From Elusimicrobiaceae bacterium (lineage in GTDB: Bacteria; Elusimicrobiota; Elusimicrobia; Elusimicrobiales; Elusimicrobiaceae), in contig JAGCKY010000046.1 of NCBI GenBank assembly GCA_017647245.1, forward strand, positions 1 to 17,622: DNA of 17,622 bases, written 5' to 3'. The position numbers and the translations under genes are program-made. The notes under the pieces were generated by a model. That model did not search any database. It was given only the letters and a program-made list of their open reading frames with translations, and was not told where the DNA came from. Position 1 is the stretch's first letter; every line of letters starts with the position of its first letter. Shown here one piece after another: positions 774-17,328 of the stretch.

Positions 774-802
774 TTGACGGGATAGGGTTTTTGTTATATA
801 CT
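774..802 (+). promoter_or_regulatory. Strong sigma70-type promoter for the structured RNA
   Basis: TTGACG (774-779) and TATACT (797-802) are separated by exactly 17 bp, each 5 of 6 to consensus. The predicted start, at about 809, coincides with the first base of the three-way-junction RNA. No open reading frame with a ribosome site follows, so the promoter appears to serve the RNA. Confidence 0.65.
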
Positions 803-808
803 ATTATT

Positions 809-869
809 GCACCGTGACAGAGTCTATTTGCTCTGGTTTAGGCTATGCCTAACACGGTGTCTTTTATTT
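809..869 (+). ncRNA. Small structured RNA (three-way junction) next to DUF3800 gene
   Basis: The outer helix pairs CACCGTG (810-816) with CACGGTG (853-859), extendable by a G-U pair (809/860). Inside it are two perfect hairpins: CAGAG (818-822) with CTCTG (831-835) around an 8-nt loop, and TTAGGC (838-843) with GCCTAA (847-852) around TAT. All 18 Watson-Crick pairs are seen in the sequence. The closing helix is followed at once by TCTTTTATTT, usable as an intrinsic terminator. With the promoter just upstream, this gives a discrete transcript of about 60 nt. Its end overlaps the stop codon of the convergent DUF3800 gene. Comparative work has described several structured RNA classes (DUF3800 motifs) beside DUF3800 genes; that this is one of them is inference, since I cannot compare it with those models. 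A plain bidirectional terminator is the main alternative, but the two internal hairpins are more than a terminator needs. Confidence 0.6.
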
Positions 870-1616
870 GTGTGGAATAAATACAATACCCCATCCTTCC
901 GCTTTTCCTTCAGGGTTTCGCCTTATGATATTTCTGATATATCTATAAAATGTATCATCATTTTTAACCCTTTTTCTGCAAACGGAACCTGCGACTAAAT
1001 CTACCAGCTGAATACCCATACTTTTATCAGATGGGGCAAAAAACACAGTACCGATTATGTTGTTAAAATCAGAAGCATGTTGTATTTCTTTGTTTAGTAT
1101 ACGATGATGAGTTTCCCGAAGATGGTTGTTATCGCGGGCATTTCTGCTATCGCATATTATCATGCCGAGTTCTTGTCTATTAGTATATTTTTCTTTATCC
1201 TGTAGACAATATTGAAAACGTTCCAACAAACTTTTGTAACAGGTTTCATAAATATCAGTTGGATTATGAATCGTTGGCATATTGTACGCTTGTTCAAGAT
1301 CACATATCACTGATATGCTTTTTAAGTAGGATTTGCTGCCAATCATTTCCAATAAATTGAACCTTAAATTGCTTTTTTCTTCGTCAGATAAATGAGATAT
1401 AGAGGTGTGCACTCCTGTTTTATGAGGAGAAAAGAAACGCCATTTGATTTCTCCTTGGATTTTGTAGCGGGTTAGTATAGAATTAAAAGTTGTATTTAAT
1501 TCTTTCCAATGTTCTGTTGGTATAATTAATCCGCTTAAAACAAAGAATTTCTTGTCAGCTTGGATTTTTTCCTTAGGTAGAGGAGTATTAGATTCATCTA
1601 TAAATAATATATTCAT
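864..1616 (-). CDS. DUF3800 domain protein
   Basis: A 250-residue protein that fits the DUF3800 family over its whole length. Family landmarks are the N-terminal strand ending in Asp-Glu (FIDES, D7-E8), an EIKW motif near residue 56, an acidic residue after a hydrophobic strand (MIICDSRNARDN, D156), and the C-terminal IQLVDLVAGSV with Q203 and D206. The spaced acidic residues resemble a metal-dependent nuclease core, but the family's biochemical role is not settled. DUF3800 genes are frequent in defence islands and beside mobile elements, and some lie next to conserved structured RNAs; here one sits immediately 3' and convergent. The start ATG at 1616 has AGGGGA 11 nt upstream and a promoter at 1699-1670. 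No signal peptide or membrane segment is seen, so the protein is probably cytoplasmic. Confidence 0.92.
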   Translation of the reverse strand: MNILFIDESNTPLPKEKIQADKKFFVLSGLIIPTEHWKELNTTFNSILTRYKIQGEIKWRFFSPHKTGVHTSISHLSDEEKSNLRFNLLEMIGSKSYLKSISVICDLEQAYNMPTIHNPTDIYETCYKSLLERFQYCLQDKEKYTNRQELGMIICDSRNARDNNHLRETHHRILNKEIQHASDFNNIIGTVFFAPSDKSMGIQLVDLVAGSVCRKRVKNDDTFYRYIRNIIRRNPEGKAEGWGIVFIPHK

Positions 1617-2327: not shown

Positions 2328-3146
2328 ATGGAATGGAAGTTTTCTGTTTTGATGTCTGTCTATGCCAAGGACCGACCCGCATGGGTGGCACAGGCATGGG
2401 AGAGCGTCTTATTTAACCGCGTCTCACCGGATGAAATTATCACGGTGATAGACGGCCCGGTGCCGGCTGACTTACAGGCCGTTTTGGACGAATTTTCTGC
2501 TAAATATCCGCAAATAAAACTTTTTCCATTAGCTAAAAACGGTGGGTTAGGACCTGCCTTGGCATATGGCTTGCAGCAATGCACGCACGAACTGGTCGCG
2601 CGTATGGACGCGGACGATATTTCATTGCCGGACCGCTTTGAAAAACAATTGGCGTATTTTGCCGCACATCCCGATACGGCGGTTTTAGGCGGGCAAATCC
2701 AGGAAATTGACGGCGACAGTTTGCAACCGGTCGCCATTCGCGCAGTACCGCAGACCGATAAGAAAATCAAACACTTTCTCAAGAGCCGATCCCCATTTAA
2801 TCACATGGCGGTGATGTATAAAAAATCCAAAGTATTGGAAGCGGGCAGTTACGGCAATTATTATTTTATGCAGGATTATTTCCTATGGGCACACATGGCG
2901 GCCAAGGGATTTGAAATGGCCAATTTGCCCGATATCTTGGTGAATGCGCGCGTCAATGATGCCCTGTACAAACGCCGCGGCGGCTGGAAATACTTTAAAC
3001 GGAGTTGGAGTATTTCTTCTAAACTATTGGAACTGGGGTTGATTTCGTATCCGCGGCATTTATTTAATTTGGCAGTGCGTTTTTGTGCACAGGTATTAAT
3101 ACCCGATTCGGTGCGAGGGTATTTTTACAAGAAGGTATTAAGATAA
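2328..3146 (+). CDS. GT2 family glycosyltransferase (AmsE-like)
   Basis: A 272-residue inverting glycosyltransferase with a GT-A fold. It starts with the family's first strand, FSVLMSVYAKDRP (5-17), has the nucleotide-binding segment IITVIDGP (37-44) and the metal-binding acidic motif MDADD (93-97), and has an acceptor-side region SPFNHM followed by QDYFLW (182-187), where a catalytic base usually sits. It should transfer a sugar from a nucleotide donor to the growing undecaprenyl-linked repeat unit on the cytoplasmic face; the sugar cannot be told from sequence. It is the first gene of the eleven-gene operon. The ATG at 2328 has no clear ribosome site, but an earlier start would add nothing conserved. 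Two bases separate it from the next gene. Confidence 0.9.
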   Translation: MEWKFSVLMSVYAKDRPAWVAQAWESVLFNRVSPDEIITVIDGPVPADLQAVLDEFSAKYPQIKLFPLAKNGGLGPALAYGLQQCTHELVARMDADDISLPDRFEKQLAYFAAHPDTAVLGGQIQEIDGDSLQPVAIRAVPQTDKKIKHFLKSRSPFNHMAVMYKKSKVLEAGSYGNYYFMQDYFLWAHMAAKGFEMANLPDILVNARVNDALYKRRGGWKYFKRSWSISSKLLELGLISYPRHLFNLAVRFCAQVLIPDSVRGYFYKKVLR

Positions 3147-3148
3147 AT

Positions 3149-4036
3149 ATGAATATACTTAAAAAAGTTTATGCGTGTTGGTTGTGGGCGCTGGTTAAAT
3201 TGTTTGGGATTGATGTTGCCAAAAATTTTGACTCACAACTGCGGTTTAAGCGCAAATTAGATCTCAAAAATCCGCAAACCTTGGCCGATAAAGTTTCGTT
3301 TTTGGTGCTACATTGTTGCACGGAATTGATGTCTAACTGTGCAGATAAATGGGCGGTGCGGGAATATGTGGCCGCGAAAGGATTAGCCGAAATTTTAATT
3401 CCGGTGGTGGGCGGCCCATGGAGTCGGGTGAGTGATATTGATTTTGAGGCATTGCCGGAGCAATTTATTCTCAAGGCTACGCATGCTTGTAAGATGAATT
3501 ATATCGTGCCGGATAAACAAAAATTAGATATCACGCATTGCAAACAAACTTTACAAACATGGCTTAATACGACCTACGGAACCTACTCGCTGGAACCACA
3601 TTACAAAAACATTCCACCTCGTATTTATGCAGAACAGTTATTAAATGTTCCTGCTGGATTAATGGACTATAAAATCCATTGTTTGAACGGTGTACCGCAA
3701 TTTATTTTAGTATGCAGTGACCGTAAATCAGGTGCGGGGCGAATGCAAGTCACATTGGATTTATTTGATACACAGTGGAAATCACTCAATCGTTTTGTGC
3801 AGGGGAGTGGCTTGGAAATAAGAGGCAGAGGGGAAATTCCGGTGCCGCAAAATCTAAATAAAATGTTGAAAATTGCGAGCCAACTTTCTGTTGATTTTCC
3901 GTTTGTGCGGGTAGATTTGTACGAGGTAAACGGCAATATTTACTTTGGGGAACTGACCTTTTCCCCTGCGTGCGGGGTATTTCCGTATTTTACGGATGAA
4001 TTTATAACCCAAATGGGAGAAAAATTGAAAATCTGA
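3149..4036 (+). CDS. TupA-like ATP-grasp protein, copy 1
   Basis: A 295-residue protein resembling the TupA-like ATP-grasp family, named after a Bacillus teichuronopeptide synthesis protein. Visible landmarks are LKNPQT (39-44), ADKWAVREYVA (65-75), DIDFEALPEQFILKATH with the candidate ATP lysine K109, AEQLL with E162, DYKIHCLNG (173-181), and the C-terminal metal-site pattern RVDLYEVNGNIYFGELTF with D256 and E268. ATP-grasp enzymes activate a carboxylate as acyl phosphate and join it to an amine, so an amino acid or peptide decoration of the polymer is likely. The ATG at 3149 was chosen because it follows the previous stop by two bases and GAAGG lies upstream; the frame extends back to 3083 within the GT2 gene. 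The loop after K109 reads HACKMN rather than the glycine-bearing HDSGG of copy 2. Confidence 0.86.
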   Translation: MNILKKVYACWLWALVKLFGIDVAKNFDSQLRFKRKLDLKNPQTLADKVSFLVLHCCTELMSNCADKWAVREYVAAKGLAEILIPVVGGPWSRVSDIDFEALPEQFILKATHACKMNYIVPDKQKLDITHCKQTLQTWLNTTYGTYSLEPHYKNIPPRIYAEQLLNVPAGLMDYKIHCLNGVPQFILVCSDRKSGAGRMQVTLDLFDTQWKSLNRFVQGSGLEIRGRGEIPVPQNLNKMLKIASQLSVDFPFVRVDLYEVNGNIYFGELTFSPACGVFPYFTDEFITQMGEKLKI

Positions 4037-4037
4037 T

Positions 4038-5126
4038 ATGAAAATACTTTTTCTGGGTGATTTCTTTTTTGATTATGATATCCTTCCTGAAGATTTTCAG
4101 GCCTTGTGCCGGGTTATCAAGCAAAATAATTACCGCGTTATTTTGAATTTAGAGACTACTTTTGGCGACAAGGGCACTCCAATCAGCAAACGGGGGCCTC
4201 ATTTGCAAAGCAGTCCACTCTTGATAAAAGCGCTTAAAGAATTGAATGTTTTGGCGGTGTGTTTGGCAAATAATCATGCCATGGACTTGGGAGCTGAATC
4301 TTTAGAATATTTATGTAAGCAATTGGATAAGGCTGGTATTTTATATGTTGGGGCGGGCGCCAATTTGAAGGAGGCTATAAGACCGCTTCCATTGCCTAAT
4401 ACGAATGTTTTACTACAAAATTTTGCTTGGAATATAGAAGAAGCTGTGTATGCGACTTCCGCGAGTGCAGGCGTGGGCCCTTTAAATCATAATTTAGTTT
4501 TACACCAAACCGCAGCGTTAAAAAAACAATATCCAAATAGTTTTATCATTAACATTTATCATTGGGGCTTTGAATACAATCTGTTGCCTATGCCGTTAGA
4601 TATACGGTTGGCGCGTAATTCAGTTAAAGCTGGGGCAGAGTTGATTATCGGACACCACCCGCACGTAATACAAGCCAGAGAAACGTATCAAGGAAAATCT
4701 ATTTTTTATTCATTGGGTAATTTCTATTTCGGTTCTCGGCGTATTAATTATAATTTGAAGTTTAAAAAATATCCTGTTACGAATGCCTGTGATTTTGGAT
4801 GTGGTATAGTATTTGACACAGATACAAAGAATTGCGAAGAAATCATATCGATTGTTTATAACCGAGAGACGAATCAATCTGTATTTCAGAAAATTAATTT
4901 GGCGCTTTTGCCCGATATTACTGGTATAAATTGTGATACAAAAGTTTATAGGGAACAAGTGAAAGCTAGCGCAGAGAATTTTAATCCTATCTTAACAAAC
5001 AATCGTTGGTATAATGCGTGTGCCTTGATTTGGTTGCATATTAAATATTTCATAGCCGGCAGACTTAGGTTTATGAAAAATACCAAATTAGGCAAAAAGA
5101 TTTTTGAGTGGGGAAAGCGAAAATGA
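4038..5126 (+). CDS. CapA-like metallophosphatase
   Basis: A 362-residue protein of the CapA/PgsA (bacterial capsule synthesis, calcineurin-like phosphoesterase) family. Metal-site signatures run in order: FLGD (5-8), NLETTF (37-42), ANNHAMD (77-83), HWGFEY (175-180), GHHPHV (205-210) and SLGNFYFG (225-232). Known members support poly-gamma-glutamate capsule synthesis or export; others are widespread and uncharacterised. Most CapA proteins have an N-terminal membrane anchor, but this one begins directly at the first catalytic strand with no anchor or signal peptide, so it should be cytoplasmic unless it joins a membrane complex. It starts one base after the preceding stop, and its stop overlaps the next ATG (ATGA). 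A role with the two ATP-grasps in making or trimming a peptide substituent is inferred. It looks more AT-rich than its neighbours. Confidence 0.88.
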   Translation: MKILFLGDFFFDYDILPEDFQALCRVIKQNNYRVILNLETTFGDKGTPISKRGPHLQSSPLLIKALKELNVLAVCLANNHAMDLGAESLEYLCKQLDKAGILYVGAGANLKEAIRPLPLPNTNVLLQNFAWNIEEAVYATSASAGVGPLNHNLVLHQTAALKKQYPNSFIINIYHWGFEYNLLPMPLDIRLARNSVKAGAELIIGHHPHVIQARETYQGKSIFYSLGNFYFGSRRINYNLKFKKYPVTNACDFGCGIVFDTDTKNCEEIISIVYNRETNQSVFQKINLALLPDITGINCDTKVYREQVKASAENFNPILTNNRWYNACALIWLHIKYFIAGRLRFMKNTKLGKKIFEWGKRK

Positions 5127-6220
5127 ATATATTGTTCCTCTCTAATCTGTCGGGCAATCTGTGGACTGGACCTAATAATAGTGTCCCGGCGCAAATAGCG
5201 GCTCAAAAAGAGCAGGATAATATTTTTTGGTTTAATTTACGTTGTAAGGTTCCAGCTACTTGGACGGAACGTAAGTTACCGTTTTTAACTTCTAAAGAAA
5301 TTTCATCTGCTCGGTTGGCTAATTTGCCCGCCCCCTTTAATCATCCTGATATTGTGGTAGTAGAAGAAGTATATCCGCATCATTTTAGCCGTATGATTGC
5401 AGATGTGCAAAGAGCAAACATTCCCTATATCATTATCCCGCGTAGCCAATTAACCCGACAAGCCCAACGCCGCAAACCGCTCAAAAAATGGCTGGGGAAT
5501 TTAATTTATCACAAGCAATTAGTGCGTCGGGCAGCGGCTATTCAGTATCTTACTAAACAAGAGCAGGCCGACTCCGGAACAAAGTGGAATAAAAATTCGT
5601 TTGTGTTACCAAACGGCATTAATTTGCCGGACTTGCCCTCTAAAAATTTTTCATCTGACAAGATACGGGCGGTCTATATCGGTCGTTTGGAAAAATACCA
5701 AAAAGGATTGGATATTTTGCTGGAAGCTTGCCGCCAAATACAAGACAAATTACGTGCGGCGCGTTTTACGCTTACGCTATATGGGCCGGATCATTCCGAT
5801 TCTATGGCGAGTTTATTGCCATTGGTCAAGAAATATCAATTGGAAGATGTGTTATTTTTTAAACCGGCGGCATTTGGCAAGGAAAAAGAGTCCGTATTAC
5901 GTCATGCTGACGTGTTTGTGATGACTTCGCGTTTTGAAGGGCATCCTATGGGACTGATTGAAGCACTGGCGTACGGGTTACCTTGTCTGGTGACTACAGG
6001 CACAAATATGCGCGAGGAAATTGAAAAATATAATGCCGGGTGGACCGCAGATACTACGGTGCAAAGCATTGCCTCGGCGCTTGAGAAAATGCTGGCAGAG
6101 CGGGCGCAATTTGCAGAAAAAAGCGCCAACGCCCGCCGTTTGGCCGAGCAATATGACTGGGCAGAAATTGCTAAACAAAGCCACCAAATTTACGAGGAAA
6201 TTATCAGAGGAAATAAATGA
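5123..6220 (+). CDS. GT4 family glycosyltransferase
   Basis: A 365-residue retaining glycosyltransferase with a GT-B fold. The C-terminal donor domain shows AVYIGRLEKYQKGLDILLEA (183-202) with the usual R and K contacts to the nucleotide phosphates, HADVFVMTSRFEGHPMGLIE, and the EX7E pair E272/E280, then ALAYGLPCLVT. The N-terminal acceptor domain is divergent (MNILFLSNLSGNLWTG), with a glycine/proline loop near residues 11-18. It would add one sugar to the lipid-linked repeat unit. The start at 5123 overlaps the CapA stop as ATGA and has GGGGAAAG at a good distance; the longer frame from 5108 would begin inside that ribosome site. The donor sugar is unknown. Confidence 0.9.
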   Translation: MNILFLSNLSGNLWTGPNNSVPAQIAAQKEQDNIFWFNLRCKVPATWTERKLPFLTSKEISSARLANLPAPFNHPDIVVVEEVYPHHFSRMIADVQRANIPYIIIPRSQLTRQAQRRKPLKKWLGNLIYHKQLVRRAAAIQYLTKQEQADSGTKWNKNSFVLPNGINLPDLPSKNFSSDKIRAVYIGRLEKYQKGLDILLEACRQIQDKLRAARFTLTLYGPDHSDSMASLLPLVKKYQLEDVLFFKPAAFGKEKESVLRHADVFVMTSRFEGHPMGLIEALAYGLPCLVTTGTNMREEIEKYNAGWTADTTVQSIASALEKMLAERAQFAEKSANARRLAEQYDWAEIAKQSHQIYEEIIRGNK

Positions 6221-6867
6221 AAGCGTTCTTAAGTAAATTAAAATCAAAATTTCTTCGCTTTATAACGTATTGTTTAGCTCCGATACGTCGCCGGGAGCTG
6301 ACCAACCGGGATTTCACTATCATCTCCAATAATTGCTGGGGCGGCTTTGTATACCAGCGTTTTAATTTACCGTACCGTTCGCCGTTTGTGGGGTTGTTTT
6401 TACCCGCGCCGTGTTTCATTAAACTGCTGGAAGATTTTGAAAATAATATGCAAAAAGAGTTGCGTTTTATCACCGTGAAAGAATCGCCTTATTACGCCAA
6501 AATCAATACTTCCGGGCGCGTTTATCCTATTGGGGTATTGGGGGAAGATATTGAAATTCACTTTTTGCATGCCAAAACGCCCGAGCAGGCGACGGCGGAT
6601 TGGAACCGGCGCAAACAGCGTATCAACCCGCAGAATCTGCTTGTGAAATTTGCGGAAATGGATTGTTGCGCGCCGGAGTTGATTGAGCGTTTTGACAAGT
6701 TGCCTTATAAACATAAAATTTGTTTTACGGTGCACGACTATCCGACGTGCAAAAGTGTAATGAAATTAGCTAGCCCCAAATATGGGACAGATAAAGTGAA
6801 AAATGATTTTAATTTCGTACCTAAAAATCTAGTGACTCTGTTGAATAGCTGTAAGGAGCAAAAATGA
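6217..6867 (+). CDS. DUF1919 polysaccharide-locus protein
   Basis: A 216-residue protein that looks like the DUF1919 family, found almost only in exopolysaccharide and capsule clusters. The key N-terminal signature is FTIISNNCWGGFVYQRFN (33-50), followed by LPYRSPFVGLFLP and a phenylalanine-rich FIKLLEDF helix; the second half has IGVLGEDIEIHFLH and a conserved W/R/K stretch (TADWNRRKQRIN). No catalytic function has been proven; a transferase role, perhaps glycosyl- or acyl-transfer, is commonly guessed. The first 23 residues are basic with a short hydrophobic run (FLRFITYCLAPI), which could give peripheral membrane contact. It is coupled by ATGA overlaps on both sides, so it is an integral member of the operon. 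Confidence 0.85.
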   Translation: MKAFLSKLKSKFLRFITYCLAPIRRRELTNRDFTIISNNCWGGFVYQRFNLPYRSPFVGLFLPAPCFIKLLEDFENNMQKELRFITVKESPYYAKINTSGRVYPIGVLGEDIEIHFLHAKTPEQATADWNRRKQRINPQNLLVKFAEMDCCAPELIERFDKLPYKHKICFTVHDYPTCKSVMKLASPKYGTDKVKNDFNFVPKNLVTLLNSCKEQK

Positions 6868-7721
6868 AAAGTTGGTTTAAGAAATTTTTACGTGTTTTGC
6901 CGGATGAGTGGTATATCCAATTGCAATACTTTCATCATTTTCACCGTTTTGCGAATTTGAAAAATCCGCAAACTTTTAATGAAAAATTACAGTGGCTTAA
7001 ATTGCACGACCGCAATCCGCTCTATACCACGCTGGTGGATAAGTATGCCGTGAAAAAATGGGTAGCGGATAAAATCGGCGAACAATATATTATTCCGACG
7101 TTGGCCGTGTGGCAAAAAGCAGAAGATATTGATTTTGATAAACTGCCCAATCAATTTGTGCTTAAAGTCAATCACGATTCGGGCGGACTGGTAATTTGCC
7201 ATGATAAATCAAAACTGGATAAACAAGAGGCGGTGGCTAAACTGGCACGCGCTTTAAAAAACAACGGGTACTGGTATGGGCGCGAGTGGCCTTATAAAAA
7301 TGTAAAGCCGTGTATTATCGCTGAAAAGTATATGGAAGATAATGCACACCATTTAAATGATTACAAATTTTTCTGTTTCAATGGGAAAGCCAAATTTATT
7401 TTGTTTGGAAGCAACCGTTTTGAAAAGGGTGGATTGAAGGTTACTTTTTACGATACAAATTGGCAAAAACTTCCATTTGCGCGGGCGTATCATTCAGTAG
7501 ATAACCCGGCGGAAAAACCCTCTCAATTGCCGGCCATGTGCCAATTGGCAGAACAATTGGCCCGGCAAATGCCTTTTGCGCGTATTGATTTTTATGTTAT
7601 TGGGGAACAAATTTATTTTGGAGAAATTACGTTGTATCCCGCTTCGGGCATGGAAGGATTTAATCCGGCGCAATGGGACAAAAAAATCGGCGATTTAGTA
7701 GAGTTGCCTGAGGATAAATAA
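6864..7721 (+). CDS. TupA-like ATP-grasp protein, copy 2
   Basis: A 285-residue ATP-grasp paralogous to the gene at 3149. Shared blocks are LKNPQTFNEKLQWLKL (32-47), VDKYAVKKWVADKIG (58-72), DIDFDKLPNQFVLKVNHDSGG with K101 and a proper glycine loop, IAEKYM with E154, NDYKFFCFNG, and RIDFYVIGEQIYFGEITLYP with D242 and E254. This copy keeps all expected ATP and metal residues and is probably the canonical enzyme. It should ligate an amine, perhaps an amino acid or amino sugar, to a carboxyl group of the repeat unit. The ATG overlaps the DUF1919 stop and has AAGGAG upstream. Two distinct copies in one operon suggest two successive ligations or two acceptors. Confidence 0.9.
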   Translation: MKSWFKKFLRVLPDEWYIQLQYFHHFHRFANLKNPQTFNEKLQWLKLHDRNPLYTTLVDKYAVKKWVADKIGEQYIIPTLAVWQKAEDIDFDKLPNQFVLKVNHDSGGLVICHDKSKLDKQEAVAKLARALKNNGYWYGREWPYKNVKPCIIAEKYMEDNAHHLNDYKFFCFNGKAKFILFGSNRFEKGGLKVTFYDTNWQKLPFARAYHSVDNPAEKPSQLPAMCQLAEQLARQMPFARIDFYVIGEQIYFGEITLYPASGMEGFNPAQWDKKIGDLVELPEDK

Positions 7722-8863
7722 TGACAAAACCAATTCACGTGCTATATGTAATGAGCGATTTGTTGGAAGGCCGCGGCGGCATCCAAAGCGTAGTGATGGC
7801 TATTTACCAACATATCAAACGGGATAATGTACAAATAGATTTTGTCATTCACCAAGATGAAAATCCTTCCTTTGTGCCAACCGTTCAAAAATTAGGTAGC
7901 AAAGTATATCAAGCCCCTCAATGCAAAGAAATAGGTCTACTAGCATATGCGCGGTGGTGGAATCGGTTTTTTAAGGAACATCCGGAATATAAAATTGTTC
8001 ATGGGCACATGAAAGCATATATGTCGCTTTATTTATGGATTGCTAAGTTGCACGGCCGTACGACGATTGCGCATAGCCATATTGCCTACCCTCAATTACG
8101 ATTCTTTAAAAAATATGCTGAAAAATTAATGTTACTACCGCTCCGTTGGATGGTGGATTATCATTTTGCGTGTTCTGTTCAAGCAGGGGAATATCTGTAT
8201 GGAAAAAATACTGTTAAAAAACCTACTTTTCATTTTATTCCCAACGCACGCGACACAAAAGTATTTGTTTTTGATGCAGAAAAACGCCAAACAATGCGTC
8301 AAAAATTAAATCTTACGGATAAATTTGTTGTGGGCCATGTGGGACGATTTGACAAACAAAAAAATCATGTATTTTTAGTTCAGATTTTTAAAGAGATTTA
8401 CAAGCATAATCCGCAAGCGCGCTTATTGTTATTCGGAACAGGAAGACTCAAAGCTAAAATTGAACAACAAGTGGCTGAACTGGGACTCGCGGAAGTGGTT
8501 ATGTTTATGGGTGTTGTGCCTAATCCGCAAGATTATTATCAAGCAATGGATGTGTTTCTATTTCCGTCCTTATATGAGGGATTGGGTATGGTGTTAACGG
8601 AGGCACAAATTGCAGGGTTACCGTGTGTGTTTTCAGCTAATTTACCACGGGAAATAGAAATTGTACCTGAGCTTTGCCACCGCGTAAGTTTGACACAATC
8701 TGCTGAAGAATGGGCAAATGTAACTTTAGCACAAGCCGGAGTAGAACGTATTTCTCACGCTAAAGAAGCCGCCGAAAAAGGCTTTGAAATAACCGAAACA
8801 GCCAAGAAATTGGAAGCATTTTATATTAACCCAAACAATGAATGGATAGAGAAAAAAGTATGA
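7721..8863 (+). CDS. GT4 family glycosyltransferase (EpsF-like)
   Basis: A 380-residue GT-B enzyme. The N-terminus has the classic acceptor-domain glycine loop GRGGIQSVV (17-25) and AHSH (117-120). The donor half has VVGHVGRFDKQKNH (203-216; R209, K214), LLLFGTGRLK, and the EX7E motif in EGLGMVLTE (E286/E294) followed by IAGLPCV. It resembles Gram-positive EpsF-type exopolysaccharide glycosyltransferases. It starts by a TAATG overlap with the ATP-grasp gene, with GAGGAT as ribosome site, and ends overlapping the polymerase start as ATGA. Together with the GT2 and the other GT4 it makes three glycosyltransferases, implying about four sugars per repeat including the one set by the initiating enzyme. 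Confidence 0.92.
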   Translation: MTKPIHVLYVMSDLLEGRGGIQSVVMAIYQHIKRDNVQIDFVIHQDENPSFVPTVQKLGSKVYQAPQCKEIGLLAYARWWNRFFKEHPEYKIVHGHMKAYMSLYLWIAKLHGRTTIAHSHIAYPQLRFFKKYAEKLMLLPLRWMVDYHFACSVQAGEYLYGKNTVKKPTFHFIPNARDTKVFVFDAEKRQTMRQKLNLTDKFVVGHVGRFDKQKNHVFLVQIFKEIYKHNPQARLLLFGTGRLKAKIEQQVAELGLAEVVMFMGVVPNPQDYYQAMDVFLFPSLYEGLGMVLTEAQIAGLPCVFSANLPREIEIVPELCHRVSLTQSAEEWANVTLAQAGVERISHAKEAAEKGFEITETAKKLEAFYINPNNEWIEKKV

Positions 8864-10080
8864 AGAAGTTATTACAATATCTTTCAATTGAAAATTTATG
8901 TATTTGGAGTTACGCTATTTTCGGCCTAGACACGGCTCTGCTGGCATTTGCAAATCCTTTCTATTCTCAGATATATTGGTTGTTTGTAAAAGCCACGGGG
9001 GTGTTTTGCATCCCCTTAGGGCTAGCTATGTTGGCAAAACAAAAAAAGATTACGCAGCAAAATTTGATCTTGTTTTTCATTCCTGCCTTTTACTTTTTGA
9101 TTACTTTGCTACATACGTATGGCGGATTTCACGGACACGGAACAATCCCTTTTATGATATTGGGTTGTTTTACATTGTTTAACGATGAATTAAAATTAAA
9201 AATATTCAAATTATTCTTTGCGTTTGTTTTAATACAATGTGTGTTTTCATTAATTTTGTGGTTTGCGTACCAATGGGGAATTAACCTTGGGTTTTCTGAA
9301 GTAAATTATTATTCCAAGAATCAACTAGGCGTACGTTACGTTAAGTGGGGAATATTCGCTATTTTCAAGGGGGGAACCAACTTGCGCCTTTGCGGCATTT
9401 TTAATGAGCCGGGCGCTCTGGGCACGTTGTGTGCGTTCTTATTTATAGTCACGTATAGCGTATCTAAATTGTGGCAAAAAATTCTCTTGTTAATAACGGG
9501 GATGTGTGCCTATTCTTTGGCCTTTTACATCTTAATTTTTATGTTTGTGGCTTGTTATGCTGTCAAAAAAAGTATTTTAAATCTCGCCTGGCTAATTGTA
9601 TTGCCTATCTTATTTTTACAAATACCTAATATAGATTTTGGCAACGATAAGGTTAACAGATTTACCCAACGTTTTGAAATATCGGAAGAAAAAGGGTTGG
9701 AAGGAAATAACCGCTCGTCAGAGTTATATGATTATGAATTTTCTAAATTGGCTCAAAACGCGCAAATTATCTATGGTTACGGGGTTGGTTACCCTGTAGT
9801 TACGTTTGATGCACACGGTACGTCTTCGTATAAGCGCTATATCGTAGATTTGGGTATCATTGGATTTGCTATTTTTGCGGCACTTTGGGCGTGGGGGGGC
9901 TTTTCGCAAACAAAAGGCAACAAAAACTGCATAATACTACTGCTTTTATTTTTCTTATCGGTATATCAACGCCCGCGCGCGTTAACAAATCTCTACGGGT
10001 ATATTTTGCTGTTTGGCGGTATGCTTTATATACAATCCAAAGCCTTGGAAAAACCTTCTCTGCAGGATAATTCAAAATGA
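8860..10080 (+). CDS. Wzy-like O-antigen/polysaccharide polymerase
   Basis: A 406-residue integral membrane protein with about ten hydrophobic segments, for example around residues 18-32, 38-58, 69-85, 95-105, 115-138, 188-203, 207-232 and 245-262, with others near the C-terminus. A polar stretch of about 70 residues (262-330, rich in N, R, E and Y) separates the last segments and would be the large periplasmic loop. The motif RLCGIFNEPGALG (176-188) matches the R-x-x-G-x-x-x-E-P-G pattern of many Wzy-type polymerases. It should join repeat units on the outer face of the cytoplasmic membrane after Wzx flipping. The ATG at 8860, overlapping the previous stop, is preferred to the one at 8842, which lies inside the GT4 gene. 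Wzy proteins are poorly conserved, so context carries weight here. Confidence 0.83.
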   Translation: MKKLLQYLSIENLCIWSYAIFGLDTALLAFANPFYSQIYWLFVKATGVFCIPLGLAMLAKQKKITQQNLILFFIPAFYFLITLLHTYGGFHGHGTIPFMILGCFTLFNDELKLKIFKLFFAFVLIQCVFSLILWFAYQWGINLGFSEVNYYSKNQLGVRYVKWGIFAIFKGGTNLRLCGIFNEPGALGTLCAFLFIVTYSVSKLWQKILLLITGMCAYSLAFYILIFMFVACYAVKKSILNLAWLIVLPILFLQIPNIDFGNDKVNRFTQRFEISEEKGLEGNNRSSELYDYEFSKLAQNAQIIYGYGVGYPVVTFDAHGTSSYKRYIVDLGIIGFAIFAALWAWGGFSQTKGNKNCIILLLLFFLSVYQRPRALTNLYGYILLFGGMLYIQSKALEKPSLQDNSK

Positions 10081-11186
10081 AAAAAATCGGAATATTAACC
10101 TTTCATAATGCCAATAACTATGGAGCCGTACTGCAGGCATACGCTCTCAAATCTACCCTGACCCGATTGGGCAGTACAGCGCATGTGTTGAATTACTACT
10201 GTCCTAAACTGCAACGGGAATATAAAGGTATCCCTGTGTTTAAAAAGAGTTTTGCGGAAATTATAAAATATCCGTTTAAATTATTGTTTTTTCCGATACT
10301 AAGAAAGCAGATCGCGCGCCGCTTTAAAAGCTTTCGCGAGCAGTATTTGCTGGATACGAAACCGCTGCTTCCAAGCATTATTGGCGATAATACGCAGTCT
10401 TACGATGCTTTCGTTTGCGGAAGCGACCAAGTGTTCAACCCGCGTATTACCCATTTTGATTCTAATTATTTTCTGGCATTTAGTCCAAATAAGTCAAAAA
10501 ACTATTCCTATGCGGCCAGCTTCGGACTTGCATTAGAATACTTGCGTCCCGAAGAAAGGGCTTTTTTTGCCAAGCAACTTGCTCACTTTAATCAAATTTC
10601 CGTCAGAGAAATGCAGGGGGCACAAATTGTGGAAGATATTTTGGCAAGCAAGGCCCAGGTGCACATAGATCCCACGTTACTTTTGACAAAGGAAGATTGG
10701 AAAAAGCTGGCCGTTCTCCCTAAAACTAAAAATTATGTTCTTTTGTATTTGATGTATGAAGACCCGAATTTAATTAGCTTGGCGCAACAGTTGGCGCGTC
10801 AAAAAGGGTGCGAACTATTATTTATTTCTCACTCCATGTATTTTAGAAAAACAGTACCCGCGCCTTATATCAAACCCACACCGCAAGAGTGGCTGGGCCT
10901 ATTCCTAAACGCCCAATATGTATTTACAAATTCTTTTCATGGACTTGCTTTCTCTATTAATTTTAATAGGCCTTTTTTCGTAGGACGGCTGCCTAATAAA
11001 AGAGGGGCTATTAATTCGCGGTTTGATAATCTGTTAGAAATTACGGGCCTGCAAAACCGTTTGTATACGCGCTTTACGGCGACTCACAACTTTGATGAAC
11101 CTATTGAGTGGCAAAGAGTCAATAACATATTAACTCAAGAGCGCGAAAAATCTTTTTCTTATTTAAGGACTATTACGCAAGGATGA
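10077..11186 (+). CDS. Polysaccharide pyruvyltransferase family protein
   Basis: A 369-residue member of the polysaccharide pyruvyltransferase family (GT-B-like fold, CsaB/WcaK relatives). Signatures: GILTFHNANNYGAVLQAYAL (5-24), the GSDQVFNP box (115-122), YSYAASFG (143-150), ISVRE (174-178), HIDPTLLL (196-203), and the C-terminal FTNSFHGLAFSINF with NSFHG at 285-289. Proven members transfer pyruvate from phosphoenolpyruvate to form a ketal on a sugar, adding negative charge. This subgroup is often linked to FrhB-like iron-sulfur proteins, as here with the gene at 12700, and its true donor may differ. It overlaps both neighbours by ATGA. Confidence 0.9.
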   Translation: MKKIGILTFHNANNYGAVLQAYALKSTLTRLGSTAHVLNYYCPKLQREYKGIPVFKKSFAEIIKYPFKLLFFPILRKQIARRFKSFREQYLLDTKPLLPSIIGDNTQSYDAFVCGSDQVFNPRITHFDSNYFLAFSPNKSKNYSYAASFGLALEYLRPEERAFFAKQLAHFNQISVREMQGAQIVEDILASKAQVHIDPTLLLTKEDWKKLAVLPKTKNYVLLYLMYEDPNLISLAQQLARQKGCELLFISHSMYFRKTVPAPYIKPTPQEWLGLFLNAQYVFTNSFHGLAFSINFNRPFFVGRLPNKRGAINSRFDNLLEITGLQNRLYTRFTATHNFDEPIEWQRVNNILTQEREKSFSYLRTITQG

Positions 11187-12712
11187 AAGGACGCACGGAA
11201 TTATTTGTTCACAACTCTTTTATGATGGCCTTCCAACAAGTTACCGGAATGGTCACGGCGTTTATTATTCCGCGCGTATTGTTGTCGGTTTATGGTTCTG
11301 AAATCAATGGGTTTGTTGTTTCGGTCACGCAGTTTATTTCTTATTTTGTATTGGTAGAAGCCGGTATTTCCGGTGCGAGTATCTATGCGCTCTACAAACC
11401 CCTTGCCAATAAAGATATCCCCGCTATTAACGGTATTTTGTCTGCGGCAAAAAAGTTTTATCAAACTTCCGGCTATATCTTTTTGGCATTAGTGTGTTTG
11501 TTGGCGTTACTGTATCCGGTATTTGCCAAAACGCTTCATTTGGCATTTTGGCAAATTTCACTGGTCGTTTTTGCGTTAGGGGCTAAAGGGGTTTTTGATT
11601 TCTTTACGCTTTCCAAATACCGCGTTTTACTTACGGCAAGCCAAAAGAGTTATATTATTTCTTCGGCTCAAATTGTTTATTTGGGGTTAAACACGCTCAT
11701 TGTATGGGGACTTGCCAAGTTGGGCTTTAGCATTGTAACGGTGGAAGTGGCGGTGGTGTTTTCCGTTTTTACCCGCTCTTGGATTTTATACTATTACACT
11801 AAAAAACATTTTCCGTTTGTTGATTATACGGTTACTCCGGATAAAGAATCTATCAAGGACCGCTGGAATGTCTTATACTTACAACTACTGCGAGGAGCCC
11901 AAAGTGCCATTCCCGTTATGTTGGCCACGATGTTAACATCATTGCTGGAGGTAAGCGTGTACAGCATTTATAACCTTGTACTGGCGGGGGTGGGGGGAAT
12001 TTTAAGCATTTTTATTTCCGGGCTTGCGGCTTCTTTTGGGGACGTGATTGCGCGCAAGCAACATAGAATCTTAAAAGAAGCGACACAACAATTTGAACAA
12101 ACTTATTATATATTTCTTACAGTTGTTTACGGGGTTTGTCTGCTGATGATTTTATCTTTTGTCAAAATATATACTACCGATATTAATGATGTGAATTATA
12201 TTTTGCCTTGGTTGGGATTTTTGTTTGTGCTAAGAGGGCTGTTAGACCACCTGAAAACTCCGCAGGGAATGTTGGTTCTTTCTGCCGGAATGTATCGCCA
12301 GACGCGCTGGCAGACCACCACGCAAGCACTTATTGCGGTGATTGGCGGAGTTATTGGCGGATATTTTTGGGGATTGTACGGCATTATAGGCGGGGGCATT
12401 TTGTCGCACTTGTACCGTGATATCGATTTGTTATTCTTTATTCCTAAACATGTTACCAAATTAAGTTATGTTCGTTCGTTACGGCACATGTTGTTGGTAC
12501 TAGGGAACTTTGGCTTAATAACATTTATTTGGTATTTTTATCCTTTTCAAATTGATACGGTGTTTCAATGGCTGGTCTATGCGGTCTGTAGTACGATAGC
12601 AGTTATCATTTGGACTGTTTTGACAAATTATGCCGTAGATCCTAAAAATATGACTCAAATTTATTACCGTATTTATAAACTAATTGCGCGGAGAATCAAA
12701 TGCTTACACTAA
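11183..12712 (+). CDS. Wzx-like polysaccharide flippase
   Basis: A 509-residue integral membrane protein with 12-14 predicted hydrophobic helices, typical in length and spacing for the MOP/PST exporter superfamily. The start FMMAFQQVTGMVTAFIIPRV followed by YGSEINGFVVSVTQFISYF closely follows the first two helices of such flippases (basic residue after helix 1, polar G-x-N-G loop). It should move the undecaprenyl-diphosphate-linked repeat unit across the cytoplasmic membrane before polymerisation by the Wzy gene two positions upstream. The ribosome site AAGG directly abuts the ATG, but the overlap with the previous stop allows coupled restart. Its last 13 bases overlap the next gene. Confidence 0.9.
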   Translation: MKGRTELFVHNSFMMAFQQVTGMVTAFIIPRVLLSVYGSEINGFVVSVTQFISYFVLVEAGISGASIYALYKPLANKDIPAINGILSAAKKFYQTSGYIFLALVCLLALLYPVFAKTLHLAFWQISLVVFALGAKGVFDFFTLSKYRVLLTASQKSYIISSAQIVYLGLNTLIVWGLAKLGFSIVTVEVAVVFSVFTRSWILYYYTKKHFPFVDYTVTPDKESIKDRWNVLYLQLLRGAQSAIPVMLATMLTSLLEVSVYSIYNLVLAGVGGILSIFISGLAASFGDVIARKQHRILKEATQQFEQTYYIFLTVVYGVCLLMILSFVKIYTTDINDVNYILPWLGFLFVLRGLLDHLKTPQGMLVLSAGMYRQTRWQTTTQALIAVIGGVIGGYFWGLYGIIGGGILSHLYRDIDLLFFIPKHVTKLSYVRSLRHMLLVLGNFGLITFIWYFYPFQIDTVFQWLVYAVCSTIAVIIWTVLTNYAVDPKNMTQIYYRIYKLIARRIKCLH

Positions 12713-13920
12713 CTGATAAAACAAAATGTTGCGGATGCGGGGCTTGTGCGAATAGTTGCCCCAAAAATTGCATCGCTATGGTGGCTGATGAAGAAGGGTT
12801 TTTATATCCGCAGGTAGATAAATCGGCGTGCGTAAATTGCGGGCTCTGTGAAAAAGTTTGCCCGATACTGAACAAACCGCAAACTTTCCCGGTGCTGGAA
12901 ACGTATGCCGCAAAACACAAAAACGCGGAAGTGAAATTAAAAAGTTCCTCGGGCGGAATGTTTACCGCGCTGGCAGAAGTGATTCTAAAAGAAGGCGGCG
13001 TTGTCTTTGGCGCCGGGTTTGATAAAGAGTGGAACGTGGTGCATACTTATGCAGAAAATTTAACGGATTTAGACAAATTGCGCCGCTCTAAATACGTGCA
13101 AAGCGATACCGAAAACACGTATCAGCAAGCCAAACAATTTTTGGAACAAGGCCGCAAGGTATTATTTACCGGTACGCCGTGCCAAATTGCGGGCTTGCGT
13201 AATTATTTAGGCAAGGAATATGAAAATCTTTTGACGGCGCAGCTTATCTGTCACGGAACGCCTTCTCCGGGGGTTTGGAGCGCTTTTTTGAAAGAAAATT
13301 TCAATAAAAATGACATAAAAAATATCAATTTTAGAGATAAGCATTTTGGTTGGAGTGCCAATTATCTGAGTTTTTTATTTTCCGATGGACTCTTGTGCGC
13401 TCATGGAATGAGAAGAACCTTGGCCGAAAAACTTTTTGAAAGAGTACCCGGCAAAAGAAAAATTGGCTACATCTATAGAAATGTATTTTTGAGAGCTTTT
13501 TTAGCCGAATTAATCAGTCGCCGGAGTTGTTTTGTTTGTGCTTTTCGGGGAAAAGAAAATCAATTTGCTGATTTTACGATGGGCGATTTGTGGGGAAAAT
13601 GGCCTGAAATTATTACTTCACAAGACAAAAGAGAAGGTATGTCTGTGCTGACGGCAAATACAGCTAAAGCCAAACATCTGTTAAATTCTCTGTCTCTTGT
13701 CACGCAACCTATTGATTTTGACCGCGTGGCGCGAATCAATTTTCCATTACTTTCTTCGCCGGTTGCTCACCCTAAACGGGCAGAGTTTTTCGCCCGGTAC
13801 CGAACGGAAAACGTAAGCAAGTTAATACGGGAGTTACTGGATATTAAACCTTGGTGGCTAGCAATCATAAACAAGGGCTACAACAAAGTGTTGACTTTGT
13901 TAAAGATAAAGCGTCCGTAA
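12700..13920 (+). CDS. FrhB/FdhB-type iron-sulfur oxidoreductase
   Basis: A 406-residue protein with two N-terminal [4Fe-4S] ferredoxin motifs, C10-x2-C13-x2-C16-x3-C20-P and C44-x2-C47-x2-C50-x3-C54-P. The coenzyme F420 hydrogenase/dehydrogenase beta-subunit domains follow: SSSGGMFTALAE, LFTGTPCQIAGLRNYLG, LICHGTPSPGVW, and a further cysteine pair in RRSCFVCAFRG before ADFTMGDLWG. In methanogens the family oxidises F420, using flavin; in polysaccharide loci it presumably reduces or oxidises a sugar or its substituent with a flavin, but no reaction is proven. It is the last gene of the operon, overlapping the flippase by 13 bp, with GGAG 6 nt before its ATG. Frequent pairing with pyruvyltransferase-family genes suggests they act on the same moiety. 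Confidence 0.9.
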   Translation: MLTLTDKTKCCGCGACANSCPKNCIAMVADEEGFLYPQVDKSACVNCGLCEKVCPILNKPQTFPVLETYAAKHKNAEVKLKSSSGGMFTALAEVILKEGGVVFGAGFDKEWNVVHTYAENLTDLDKLRRSKYVQSDTENTYQQAKQFLEQGRKVLFTGTPCQIAGLRNYLGKEYENLLTAQLICHGTPSPGVWSAFLKENFNKNDIKNINFRDKHFGWSANYLSFLFSDGLLCAHGMRRTLAEKLFERVPGKRKIGYIYRNVFLRAFLAELISRRSCFVCAFRGKENQFADFTMGDLWGKWPEIITSQDKREGMSVLTANTAKAKHLLNSLSLVTQPIDFDRVARINFPLLSSPVAHPKRAEFFARYRTENVSKLIRELLDIKPWWLAIINKGYNKVLTLLKIKRP

Positions 13921-13963
13921 TATAACAGCTAATTCTATTTTGAAAGCCGGTGTGCTTAAAAAG

Positions 13964-14989
13964 TTATCTTTTGGCTTTGCTTTTGAGCACCCATACGCTG
14001 TAGGCAGGCATTTGCGCGGTTTTCTTGCCGCGGAATAATAGTTTATATTTCCATTTTAAAAATGCCTTTGGCGTGTCCACTGCGCTATCCGAGCGATTAA
14101 TTAAAATAGTGTATAAATACTTTCCATACAGGCGGGTTTGTGCGGCCATCGGTGCGGAAACGGCTACCGGATTTTCGGTCAAAATACCTTCTTCTAATAC
14201 CGGGCGTAATTGGGCAAGCTCTTTGGATACGGCTTCCATACGTGCCCAATACTCGGGCTTGGATTGGGGCAGGGGTTTTCCTTCGGTGGTAAATACAAAA
14301 TAAAACAGCCCGGTCGCTCCGTTCACTATACCGTCATAAGACATAAAGCGAATTTCTTCCTGCGTAGGAAAACGACCGATACGGTCATTGTCCGGGCGGT
14401 TTTGTTTATATTCTTTCCAATCAAAAAGCTGTACCACACCCCATAGCGGATGTTGCCCCGCGTTCATAGCAATTTGTCCTTCTTTAGCCCAACGTACATT
14501 ATCGCCAAAAGAAGTGAGCGCTAAATGCGGCACGGGATACCAGTCCATCATTAAACCGTCTGCCAAGTCATAGTAAGGGGTGGCGGTTTTTCCTTGTCCA
14601 ATCACAAAAGTGGTTGGGTGATTTGGAAAAGCGGCGCGTGCTTTTTCGTGTGCTTCGTTTACGCGGGTGCGGGACCATTTGTGCACGTCGGGTTCGTCCA
14701 CCAAATACCACGCAAGTATCGGCCAATCCTGCGCGGCTTCTTGCGTGTCGGAACCAATAATTTTATTGGGATAAAACACGACTTGCATATCATTTTCTTT
14801 TGCGGCTTGCGCCAAAGGAATTAATTTATCGGCCGTGCCCCGGTATGTTTGAAAACAAGTAAATCCGGCGGCTTTTAACATAGGAACATCTGACGGATTA
14901 TCCACTCCGTACATACACAACGGAAACGAAGCCGCCGTCGCGTTCAAAGCAAAATACAAAAGGAGTAAAGACGCAATGTGTTTTTTCAT
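13964..14989 (-). CDS. Secreted glycoside-hydrolase-like TIM-barrel protein
   Basis: A 341-residue protein with a clear signal peptide: KKH, hydrophobic core IASLLLLYFAL, and likely cleavage after NATAA near residue 20. The mature part begins FPLCMYGVDNPSDVPMLKAAG and has alternating strands and helices of a TIM barrel, with the clan-A-like motif ILAWYLVDEPDVHKW (91-105), where E99 is a candidate acid/base. The second catalytic glutamate is not obvious; E245-like positions in FTTEGK are possible. Related proteins of unknown specificity occur beside polysaccharide genes. A small C-terminal beta domain (residues 280-341) probably follows. The ATG is 3 nt after the stop of the initiating transferase, with AGGAT as ribosome site, so it belongs to that operon. 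It may trim or release the polymer, or be a catalytically dead binder. Confidence 0.7.
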   Translation of the reverse strand: MKKHIASLLLLYFALNATAASFPLCMYGVDNPSDVPMLKAAGFTCFQTYRGTADKLIPLAQAAKENDMQVVFYPNKIIGSDTQEAAQDWPILAWYLVDEPDVHKWSRTRVNEAHEKARAAFPNHPTTFVIGQGKTATPYYDLADGLMMDWYPVPHLALTSFGDNVRWAKEGQIAMNAGQHPLWGVVQLFDWKEYKQNRPDNDRIGRFPTQEEIRFMSYDGIVNGATGLFYFVFTTEGKPLPQSKPEYWARMEAVSKELAQLRPVLEEGILTENPVAVSAPMAAQTRLYGKYLYTILINRSDSAVDTPKAFLKWKYKLLFRGKKTAQMPAYSVWVLKSKAKR

Positions 14990-14992
14990 AAA

Positions 14993-16330
14993 TTATCCTA
15001 TTTTGGAATCTTTAATGAACATTCGCAGACCCGTCTTAATCATAATATCTAAATCCAGCCCGATGGTGCGGTTTTTGATATACCATACGTCATAAGAAAA
15101 ACGGGTAAACGCGGCGTCAAAGGCCTGTTTTTCTTCTAAAGTGCTTTGCCCGTTTTTAGTCTTATAATTAGGGGGCGCTTTAAAATTAAGCTGTGCCCAA
15201 CCGGTAATACCCGGTTTGACAATGGTGCGAATGGTGTGGTGCGGAATAGAATGATTTAAAATTGCCCATTCGCCTATCCACAAAGGCCGCGGCCCGACAA
15301 AAGAAATATCACCGCGTAGTACGTTGATAATTTGCGGAATTTCATCCAAACGGAAGCGGCGCAGAAACGGACCGGTCTTGGTAAGTCGTTCTTGCTCGGA
15401 TTCTTGCGTTTTGGAAAGAATGGTGCGGAATTTATAAATGTTAAATTCTTTGCCCAGCAAGCCCACGCGTTTTTGTTTGAAAATGGGTTTTTCTCCGTCT
15501 ATAACACGCACTAAAAGCCAAAGGAAACAACCTAACGGCGCAAGTATGGGAAGTAGGCAAAGTGCTAATGTTAAATCAAAAGTACGTTTGAGCATACCAT
15601 ACATAGAATTTTCGTGTCGGTTACCGATACCGCGCAGTAACCAAGAGCTGTCTTCTATGCTTTCGCGCGACACCCGGCGCAAGATTTGTTCATAGGCGTT
15701 AAAATCCGTATCCACGACCGCACCTTTGGCAATAAATTGCGAAGAAATGACATCCCATGCTTGCGGCTGTTCACGGAAAAGTTTGCTACCGATGATTACC
15801 ATATCTAAATTGCGTAACGAGTAGCGTTTGCCCGCCACCGGAGCCGTTTCGTATCCGCGCGCGTTAAATCCGCGGGAGTTTTTGACTTCTTTGACGAGTT
15901 CTGTTAACGTGGGACTATCCCCGAAAAAAAGCAGGTTGGTTTTAGCCACATCTAATTTGAAGTAATTGCGTCTAAATAAGTAAACGTATGCAAAATAAAT
16001 CAGCAAAATGGCAATCAAGATGCGGCGCGGGGTGGGGATATGTAACGGTAGTGCCGAAACAAAGTAGATCACACTGGCAGATCCGGCTAATGTAATTAAA
16101 AAGGCAATTGCCAAACGGCGGTAGGCGATGACTTGTTTGCGTAGTAGTTTAACGTCGTAAAATGAAAACAGCCACAAGACGAAACTGGCAAACAGGAAAA
16201 CGGGAACAAAGGTCCACAATTGGTGGTGGAAGCTGTCCCATACTTTGTTACCGTGCCGCATATAGACGGTTAGCCAAGTAATGGCAAAAAATGCCAATGT
16301 ATCCAGTATAAAAAATAATTTTCCAGTCAT
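14993..16330 (-). CDS. Polytopic initiating phosphoglycosyltransferase (WbaP/WcaJ type)
   Basis: A 445-residue membrane enzyme. The N-terminal half has about four to five hydrophobic segments (residues 5-22, 38-57, 72-92, 103-115), followed by a Rossmann-like soluble section (about 125-230; NLLFFGDSPT, NLDMVIIGSKLF). The C-terminal bacterial sugar transferase domain starts at LKRTFDLTLALCLLPILAP (248-266) with the re-entrant helix, then FNIYKFRT, LRRFRLDEIPQIINVLRG with the catalytic D-E pair, DISFVGPRPL, and KPGITGWAQLNF. It transfers a hexose-1-phosphate or similar from a UDP-sugar to undecaprenyl phosphate, the first step of the repeat unit built by the neighbouring plus-strand genes. It lies 31 bp after the epimerase gene. 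No strong ribosome site is seen; GAAGAAT lies about 20 nt upstream. Confidence 0.93.
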   Translation of the reverse strand: MTGKLFFILDTLAFFAITWLTVYMRHGNKVWDSFHHQLWTFVPVFLFASFVLWLFSFYDVKLLRKQVIAYRRLAIAFLITLAGSASVIYFVSALPLHIPTPRRILIAILLIYFAYVYLFRRNYFKLDVAKTNLLFFGDSPTLTELVKEVKNSRGFNARGYETAPVAGKRYSLRNLDMVIIGSKLFREQPQAWDVISSQFIAKGAVVDTDFNAYEQILRRVSRESIEDSSWLLRGIGNRHENSMYGMLKRTFDLTLALCLLPILAPLGCFLWLLVRVIDGEKPIFKQKRVGLLGKEFNIYKFRTILSKTQESEQERLTKTGPFLRRFRLDEIPQIINVLRGDISFVGPRPLWIGEWAILNHSIPHHTIRTIVKPGITGWAQLNFKAPPNYKTKNGQSTLEEKQAFDAAFTRFSYDVWYIKNRTIGLDLDIMIKTGLRMFIKDSKIG

Positions 16331-16361
16331 AATGTTTGTACTTTTTTTTTATTCTTCTTAC

Positions 16362-17297: not shown

Positions 17298-17328
17298 GTA
17301 AATATCCATGTATGAAGAATTTACATAC

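Follow-up and report, generated by a model that had tools for sequence, protein, structure and literature searches.

The DNA described here raises the question of whether a DUF3800 gene and a small structured RNA lying convergently at its 3′ end belong together, as the preliminary description of the locus had proposed, and what such an RNA would do for, or to, its protein partner. The window, i.e. the whole analysed stretch of 17,622 nucleotides, is part of an Elusimicrobiaceae genome of 1.1 Mb (78% complete). At the left contig end, positions 1-436 carry an XRE-type regulator gene and resemble four genomes of the genus at 78-79% identity, which shows that the contig is not of foreign origin. 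An AT-rich segment at 421-2320 (33% GC, vs 42% to the right of it) contains the DUF3800 gene (864-1616, - strand) together with the convergent promoter and RNA (774-866, + strand). The region 2328-17360 is a cluster of surface-polysaccharide type, in which glycosyltransferase, TupA-like ATP-grasp, PGA_cap and epimerase genes were identified by Pfam and the others by eye. No other genome among 149 of the order had a close relative of the DUF3800 protein, and among 340 of the phylum a single other genome (G321) had one; the remaining matches (three further genomes of the order, 15 of the phylum) were weak, with at most 35.8 bits, and were judged to belong to other subfamilies. As the close relative is confined to that one other genome of the phylum, the DUF3800-RNA unit of the window was probably gained by transfer.

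The DUF3800 gene encodes a protein of 250 amino acids with its stop codon at 864-866, and matches PF12686 over residues 3-215 with an E-value of 1.1e-19 and 72 bits, the curated cut-off being 21. The protein is predicted to be a nuclease folding like RNase HII, which provided the best fold matches at 14% identity; ToxN was absent among the fold matches listed, and a profile search of PDB sequences gave no relative (best E-value 0.77). The sequence IDESNTPL of the window protein corresponds to IDESGTPP of the consensus. According to a structure alignment (A6) of 67 proteins, Asp7 and Glu8 of this IDES motif (codons at 1593-1598, - strand) are at least 90% conserved, Asp156 (1149-1151, - strand), at the end of the strand formed by residues 151-156, is invariant, and Asp206 (999-1001, - strand), within the helix of residues 200-218, is again at least 90% conserved. 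Asp7-Glu8 we take to be the counterpart of the DE active site of RNase HII, an assignment which also leans on the fold match. The PADLOC profile PDC-M04A was matched with 49.1 bits and an E-value of 1.1e-13.

On the opposite strand, a sigma70-type promoter consists of the -35 hexamer TTGACG (774-779, + strand) and the -10 hexamer TATACT (797-802, + strand), which together match the consensus in 10 of 12 positions and have the 17-bp spacing initially reported. Six nucleotides further on begins the small RNA (809-866, + strand), modelled as a 52-nt structure and a 6-nt tail. The closing helix P1 pairs 809-816 with 853-860 and encloses the hairpins P2 (818-835, pairing 818-823 with 830-835) and P3 (838-852, pairing 838-843 with 847-852). 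The three-way junction first described was therefore recovered, with helices of 8, 6 and 6 bp when G-U pairs are counted instead of 7, 5 and 6 bp, and the stop codon of the DUF3800 gene at 864-866 does fall within the tail of the RNA. The predicted fold (-24.1 kcal/mol, z-score -3.66) was equalled by one of 200 shuffled sequences, and taken by itself appears only moderately beyond chance. One copy of the RNA was found in the genome, which is 78% complete.

The search for protein homologues found 24, of which 21 were aligned, and the loci taken for comparison numbered 85 (73 from genomes and 12 from viral contigs). The closest relatives of the window protein, P0002-P0008 from metagenomes, are 52-80% identical. 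A covariance model built from the window RNA alone (R1) gave matches at E ≤0.02 in 49 of the 85 loci, all of them antisense to the DUF3800 gene and at its 3′ end. A second model (R2), which was trained on 50 of 81 rows and scores on those by construction, detected the RNA in the window and in 80 of the 85 homologue loci, in all 80 antisense to the gene, and at E ≤0.01 had no match elsewhere in 545 kb. The distance between the stop codon and the end of the modelled RNA was at most 10 nt in 68 of the 81 copies, the window included. In three loci missed by R2 (L075, L087 and L117) the same junction was obtained by folding, at the same place, for L087 only after trimming to 47 nt, as a longer piece folds best otherwise. 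The two other loci lacking an R2 match, L105 and L106, encode distant DUF3800 proteins (E-values 6e-6 and 2e-5). The RNA was thus recognised in each of the 83 subfamily loci, in 80 by R2 and in three by folding. The hosts belong to Pseudomonadota, Melainabacteria, Cyanobacteriota, Planctomycetota, Actinomycetota, Deinococcota, Acidobacteriota, Myxococcota and Elusimicrobiota, and phages are also represented.

R1 over 150 genomes (E ≤0.1) matched only the window, and R2 with stricter filters over 334 phylum genomes matched the window, G321 and G060, the last of which belongs to the same genus as the window; a G138 match at 23.9 bits was judged to be chance. The G321 locus (L124), the sole strong R2 match in a scan of 42 sources, is letter for letter a part of L045, i.e. 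one locus; 24 of these sources hold other DUF3800 genes from the phylum, and R2 had no match in any of them. A BLASTN search with the RNA region against 199 genomes, its own included, gave matches in 118 at E ≤1, the best beyond the window at 0.0017. The matching pieces span a few dozen bases at most, and the top two lie within the promoter part; five genomes of one genus share 21 bases of P3-P1 with one difference.

The promoter is conserved as well. Over 77 distinct upstream regions the best -35/-10 pair at near-fixed distance, in the position seen in the window, scored on average 8.79 of 12. Shuffling, repeated 200 times, gave a mean of 6.05 and a maximum of 6.42, and random positions gave 5.36. 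Being conserved at fixed spacing, the promoter implies that the structure begins where transcription should start.

Pairing was assessed on the 76 distinct sequences of the 81 rows, in an alignment which was fitted to the model, so that the counts of pairing and covariation lean towards the model. In this alignment 95.0% of cells were paired (P1 95.6%, P2 91.4%, P3 97.3%) and 17 of the 20 base pairs had double-sided changes (6/8, 5/6 and 6/6, respectively). The covariation score was 0.539, against 0.211 for shuffles (sd 0.009; 0/500 as high) and at most 0.101 for slid partners. RNAalifold, predicting independently on the same alignment, returned the same three helices with 16 pairs, 14 of which had double-sided changes. 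Compensatory changes in homologues beside other DUF3800 genes were the observation on which the preliminary description had staked its proposal in advance, and the outcome is the opposite of a refutation. G-U cells (131) far exceeded A-C cells (13, ten of them at the outermost pair), which identifies the strand antisense to the DUF3800 gene as the one that folds. Because the RNA is conserved at the same place and on the same strand in 80 of 85 loci, and covaries in every helix, its reality does not depend on the fold alone; the RNA and its tie to DUF3800 are established computationally.

That the conserved structure is a single-stranded DNA element, such as the hairpin end of a mobile cassette, and no RNA at all, is hardly credible. 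The compactness of the cassette amid differing surroundings would suit such an element, and G-T pairs are tolerated in DNA hairpins too; a promoter at fixed spacing ahead of the structure, however, would be pointless for a DNA hairpin. An integron attC site, brought to mind by the word GCCTAAC, was also considered and dropped, as covariation and promoter fit an RNA and the closing helix of the window RNA is presumably not an attC core.

The U-rich end of the window RNA, also pointed out in the preliminary description, is not general in the family. Six or more T within eight bases past the closing helix were present in 21 of the 81 copies, 16 of these in loci of less than 45% GC, and a built-in terminator is therefore no conserved feature. 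By eye, L039 and L109 have hairpins between the RNA and the DUF3800 stop codon, in L039 with a long T-run, which are perhaps two-way terminators; their gaps from RNA to stop (38 and 33 nt) are the widest except for that of L107.

A guide function, in which the RNA would pair with nucleic acid and direct the nuclease to it, like the guides of TnpB or Cas systems, had been one of the initial suggestions and agrees with an RNase H-type fold and with a position at the 3′ end of a nuclease gene, where omega RNAs also sit. We consider it very improbable, since no variable guide segment was seen and the longest unpaired stretch within the modelled window RNA is 6 nt. In addition, 81 of 81 copies run antisense to the gene, and in most of them the stop codon lies so close that a 3′ extension would mostly match its own gene.

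The same closeness, together with the stop-codon overlap in the window and the U-runs of a minority of copies, could instead point to action on DUF3800 only in cis, as an antisense RNA or a convergent terminator at the 3′ end of the gene. This we likewise regard as very improbable: antisense action needs no three covarying helices, copies of the RNA exist apart from any DUF3800 gene (see below), and in more distant relatives a junction RNA is situated upstream of the gene and on its strand. In Pseudomonas phage Marin (L152), the DUF3800 protein of which is 29% identical to that of L108, a DUF3800-VI RNA (RF02915, 45.2 bits) lies just upstream on the same strand, in the order promoter-like site (10/12), junction RNA, GC-rich hairpin and DUF3800 start. 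In the E. coli plasmids pSE11-4 (L149) and pETEC_5 (L150), both small mobilizable plasmids, a similar junction fold is followed by a T-run hairpin and then by DUF3800, with weaker promoter-like sites (8/12 and 9/12) and no Rfam match to a DUF3800 RNA. R2 finds none of these three RNAs; their likeness to the window RNA is one of layout. That a junction RNA can occur on either side and either strand favours a trans-acting RNA in its own right over an antisense or 3′-UTR role. Given these upstream, same-strand RNAs in two distant DUF3800 groups, convergent overlap, which had been thought to tie the expression of gene and RNA together, is not essential.

Weinberg et al. 2017 reportedly described DUF3800 RNA motifs I-XI, and in outline this kind of RNA was thus known before. 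An Rfam scan of the window at E ≤5 gave six matches, all below gathering scores and none at the RNA, whereas the gathering score of RF02915 (35 bits) was reached by three of 50 scanned relatives, L059 being just below. Judged by eye against the consensus structure of the model and the Marin member, RF02915 and the window RNA have the same layout (an 8-bp closing helix, 1 nt, a hairpin, 2 nt and a second hairpin, closed directly), and both adjoin DUF3800 genes. They differ in that the window RNA is unmatched by RF02915 at E ≤5, and in arrangement, the Marin member being upstream on the same strand and the RNA of the window subfamily downstream, convergent and under its own promoter. Rfam types RF02915 as Cis-reg, against which the separate promoter and the stand-alone copies argue for a trans-acting RNA. 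The suggestion of a new RNA class accordingly stands for the window RNA as far as Rfam matches go, and is weakened by those relatives that do reach RF02915; their small number makes the RNA a large unmodelled extension, or a sister, of the described class. A further Rfam type, DUF3800-VIII, was found at L105:1934-1999 (55 bits), upstream of its DUF3800 gene on the same strand, and the RNA apparently varies from one DUF3800 subfamily to another.

The association between gene and RNA is also visible in how the two move. When 21 author-chosen pairs of loci were compared, the gene with its RNA was the sole shared DNA in eight. The shared stretch was 859 bp in L040/L043, 859 bp in L046/L050, 881 bp in L094/L095 and 888 bp in L114/L047, in all of which it reaches through the RNA promoter; in L038/L049, L108/L109, L064/L103 and L109/L110 the match stops at about the RNA. 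Two phage contigs (L112/L113) have 935 bp in common at 93% identity, plus two short pieces and little else, L111/L112 gave no match, and the other 11 pairs have more DNA in common. The cassette is compact, about 0.85 kb, and consists of a DUF3800 gene and a convergent RNA of ~55-60 nt with its own promoter. In the class III loci L090, L092 and L093 (RNA classes are given below) the DUF3800 gene is followed, at a distance of a few hundred bases, by a tRNA gene that is perhaps an integration site.

Gene and RNA have diversified jointly. In seven of the chosen pairs the RNA was 90-100% identical and the gene DNA 72-83% identical. The protein appears to be under purifying selection, measurable in the three of these seven pairs in which dS was computable (dN/dS 0.04-0.09, with dS about 1.5 and near saturation). 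The RNAs fall by their P2 region into four sequence classes (GACUGC-like, GAGUGC, GAGCCUGA and GGGAUGC-like), those of L075, L087 and L117 being assigned by eye. A quick protein tree was made of the window and the 73 loci in which the protein is intact, leaving out L105; on it these classes required three changes, which is the minimum; the mean for shuffles was 29.7, and 0/200 were as low. The window groups with class I, its exact placement being unsure because of its long branch (1.83). RNA and DUF3800 are shown by these data to be one co-inherited unit with joint transfer and joint diversification, and the initial proposal that they form one unit is borne out.

What the RNA does is indicated mainly by the cases in which it occurs without an intact protein. 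Stand-alone copies were sought by pattern scans of viral contigs, using patterns from known members, followed by the covariance model; such RNA-first scans are not an even sample, and the number of copies collected is no measure of their frequency. At a threshold of 33 bits, 15 virus records carry the RNA: six have an intact adjoining DUF3800 gene, one (L193) has only a 39-codon remnant, and eight have none. In these eight (L160, L164, L165, L171, L176, L192, L194 and L210) PF12686 had no match anywhere in the whole record, and their RNAs retain the structure (stand-alone copies scored 33.6-64.1 bits). L160, L192 and L194 are fragments of 5-11 kb, and as IMG/VR records may have lost the gene; L192 and L194 are moreover near-identical around the RNA. 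The firmer cases are consequently L164 (12 kb), L165 (37 kb), L210 (47 kb), L176 (56 kb) and L171 (57 kb). Phage genes were identified in L164 (major capsid) and L165 (terminase small subunit). Promoter scores were 9-11 of 12 in L165, L171, L192 and L194, and at chance level in L164 (7/12) and L176 (6/12), the latter having a perfect -10. Weaker candidates, such as L184 (22.6 bits) and L183 (18.2 bits), were treated as chance. The pattern of the window's own P2 had no match in the viral contigs, and a G060-like P2 pattern had four, none with a junction RNA.

A stand-alone copy is also present in a host relative. G060 (93% complete) carries the RNA at 49 bits, with the same layout, a different closing helix and a promoter of 11/12, and PF12686 had no match in that genome. 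At L205:1501-1837, in a genome of the window's genus, the stand-alone RNA is followed by a small same-strand gene that by eye is ribbon-helix-helix antitoxin-like. Several viral copies have a convergent neighbour of another kind: in L164 (6940-7851) the RNA overlaps by 2 nt the stop of a gene of the PD-(D/E)XK nuclease family (PF12784), which is the usual position beside DUF3800; in L165 there is a 5-nt gap to the stop of the terminase small subunit gene; in L176 the RNA overlaps by 2 nt the stop of a 70-codon frame with no family match; and in L160 the gap is 21 nt. With another convergent stop within 5 nt in L164, L165 and L176, the RNA may have other partners.

Broken proteins give the same picture among the 85 loci. 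In six (L076, L086, L097, L098, L102 and L103) the protein is split by a frameshift or stop, and in all of them the RNA is kept; two of the six are from MAGs, and some splits may be sequencing errors. L101 and L107 have a partial protein only and retain the RNA, which in L107 is weak (28.8 bits).

The RNA thus occurs without an intact protein, no protein of the subfamily was seen without the RNA, and this one-way pattern, although indirect, is the main reason for ranking first, among the functions considered, an antitoxin that restrains a nuclease toxin or defence effector in a type III-like manner. We infer such a role with slightly better than even confidence; of the three options offered at the outset (antitoxin, guide-like partner or nuclease substrate) it is the best supported. 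The small RNA, produced in excess and rapidly turned over, would bind the DUF3800 nuclease and hold it inactive. If transcription were stopped or hijacked, for example by a phage, the RNA would be lost and the nuclease freed, which would then cut RNA or RNA-containing nucleic acid and halt growth and phage production. The phages and the one sister genome with a stand-alone RNA would carry it as a neutralising copy.

The main competitor, possible but doubtful, is that protein and RNA make up a ribonucleoprotein nuclease which senses phage infection and requires the RNA as cofactor or activator, in the manner of other defence enzymes that depend on RNA, the stand-alone phage RNAs being decoys or relics. 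Such a partnership would equally explain why no protein of the subfamily was seen without the RNA, and why the two diversify jointly. DUF3800 proteins, with an RNase H fold, are moreover named as accessories of some CRISPR systems (PMC10910872 and PMC12669027). On the other hand, the stand-alone copies keep their structure and several keep the promoter, and a working copy of a cofactor would not protect a phage; nor would an essential cofactor account for an RNA retained where the protein is broken.

Taken one step further, an antitoxin role suggests a widespread toxin-antitoxin family in which a single junction RNA restrains an RNase HII-fold nuclease, the RNA alone in phages and in a host relative serving as counter-defence or immunity in a trans-phylum arms race; for this broader picture the chances are somewhat below even. 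If the RNA is indeed an antitoxin, an RNase HII-fold toxin and a new shape of antitoxin RNA would join the RNA-protein toxin-antitoxin systems, along with a family of RNA-only phage counter-measures. The question is now directly testable, with a defined RNA, promoter and start, one partner protein, and a predicted fold and active site, and the loci with a broken protein and the stand-alone phage RNAs provide natural material. No tested function for DUF3800-associated RNAs was found in the accessible parts of the literature naming DUF3800, and no literature was found on the junction RNA with toxin-antitoxin and defence. Measured against the literature found, it is new that the RNA lies convergent with the gene behind a conserved promoter, that the two are linked one to one and have diversified together, and that copies stand alone in phages and a host; some of this Weinberg et al. 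may contain.

Compared with known systems, PDC-M04A of PADLOC corresponds by its profile match and offers a candidate defence name only, its entry mentioning no RNA. RNase HII motifs read DEAGRG, in which GRG is the substrate motif after the catalytic DE. The window protein resembles RNase HII in its predicted fold and in the DE-like IDES motif, and differs from RNase HII and RNase H2 in its low identity, in having an IDESGTP-like motif and no GRG after the DE, and in the partner RNA that adjoins its gene. From the type III toxin-antitoxin systems (ToxIN, CptIN, AbiQ) it is apparently set apart by the RNase HII-like predicted fold, type III toxins being endoribonucleases of the ToxN/AbiQ fold and ToxN being absent among the fold matches listed; by the single RNA copy with no tandem repeats, in a genome that is incomplete; by the structure that the alignment supports, a three-way junction, the antitoxins of type III systems being pseudoknots; and by convergent transcription of RNA and gene in the window in place of one operon. 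Nevertheless, as in type III systems a small structured RNA is genetically tied to a predicted nuclease, and copies of the RNA are borne by phages, for which ToxIN sets a precedent with phage RNA mimics of its antitoxin (PMC3475682). The type III operon order as outlined in PMC5086642, i.e. promoter, RNA, hairpin or terminator, and toxin, recurs in the relatives from phage Marin and the two E. coli plasmids.
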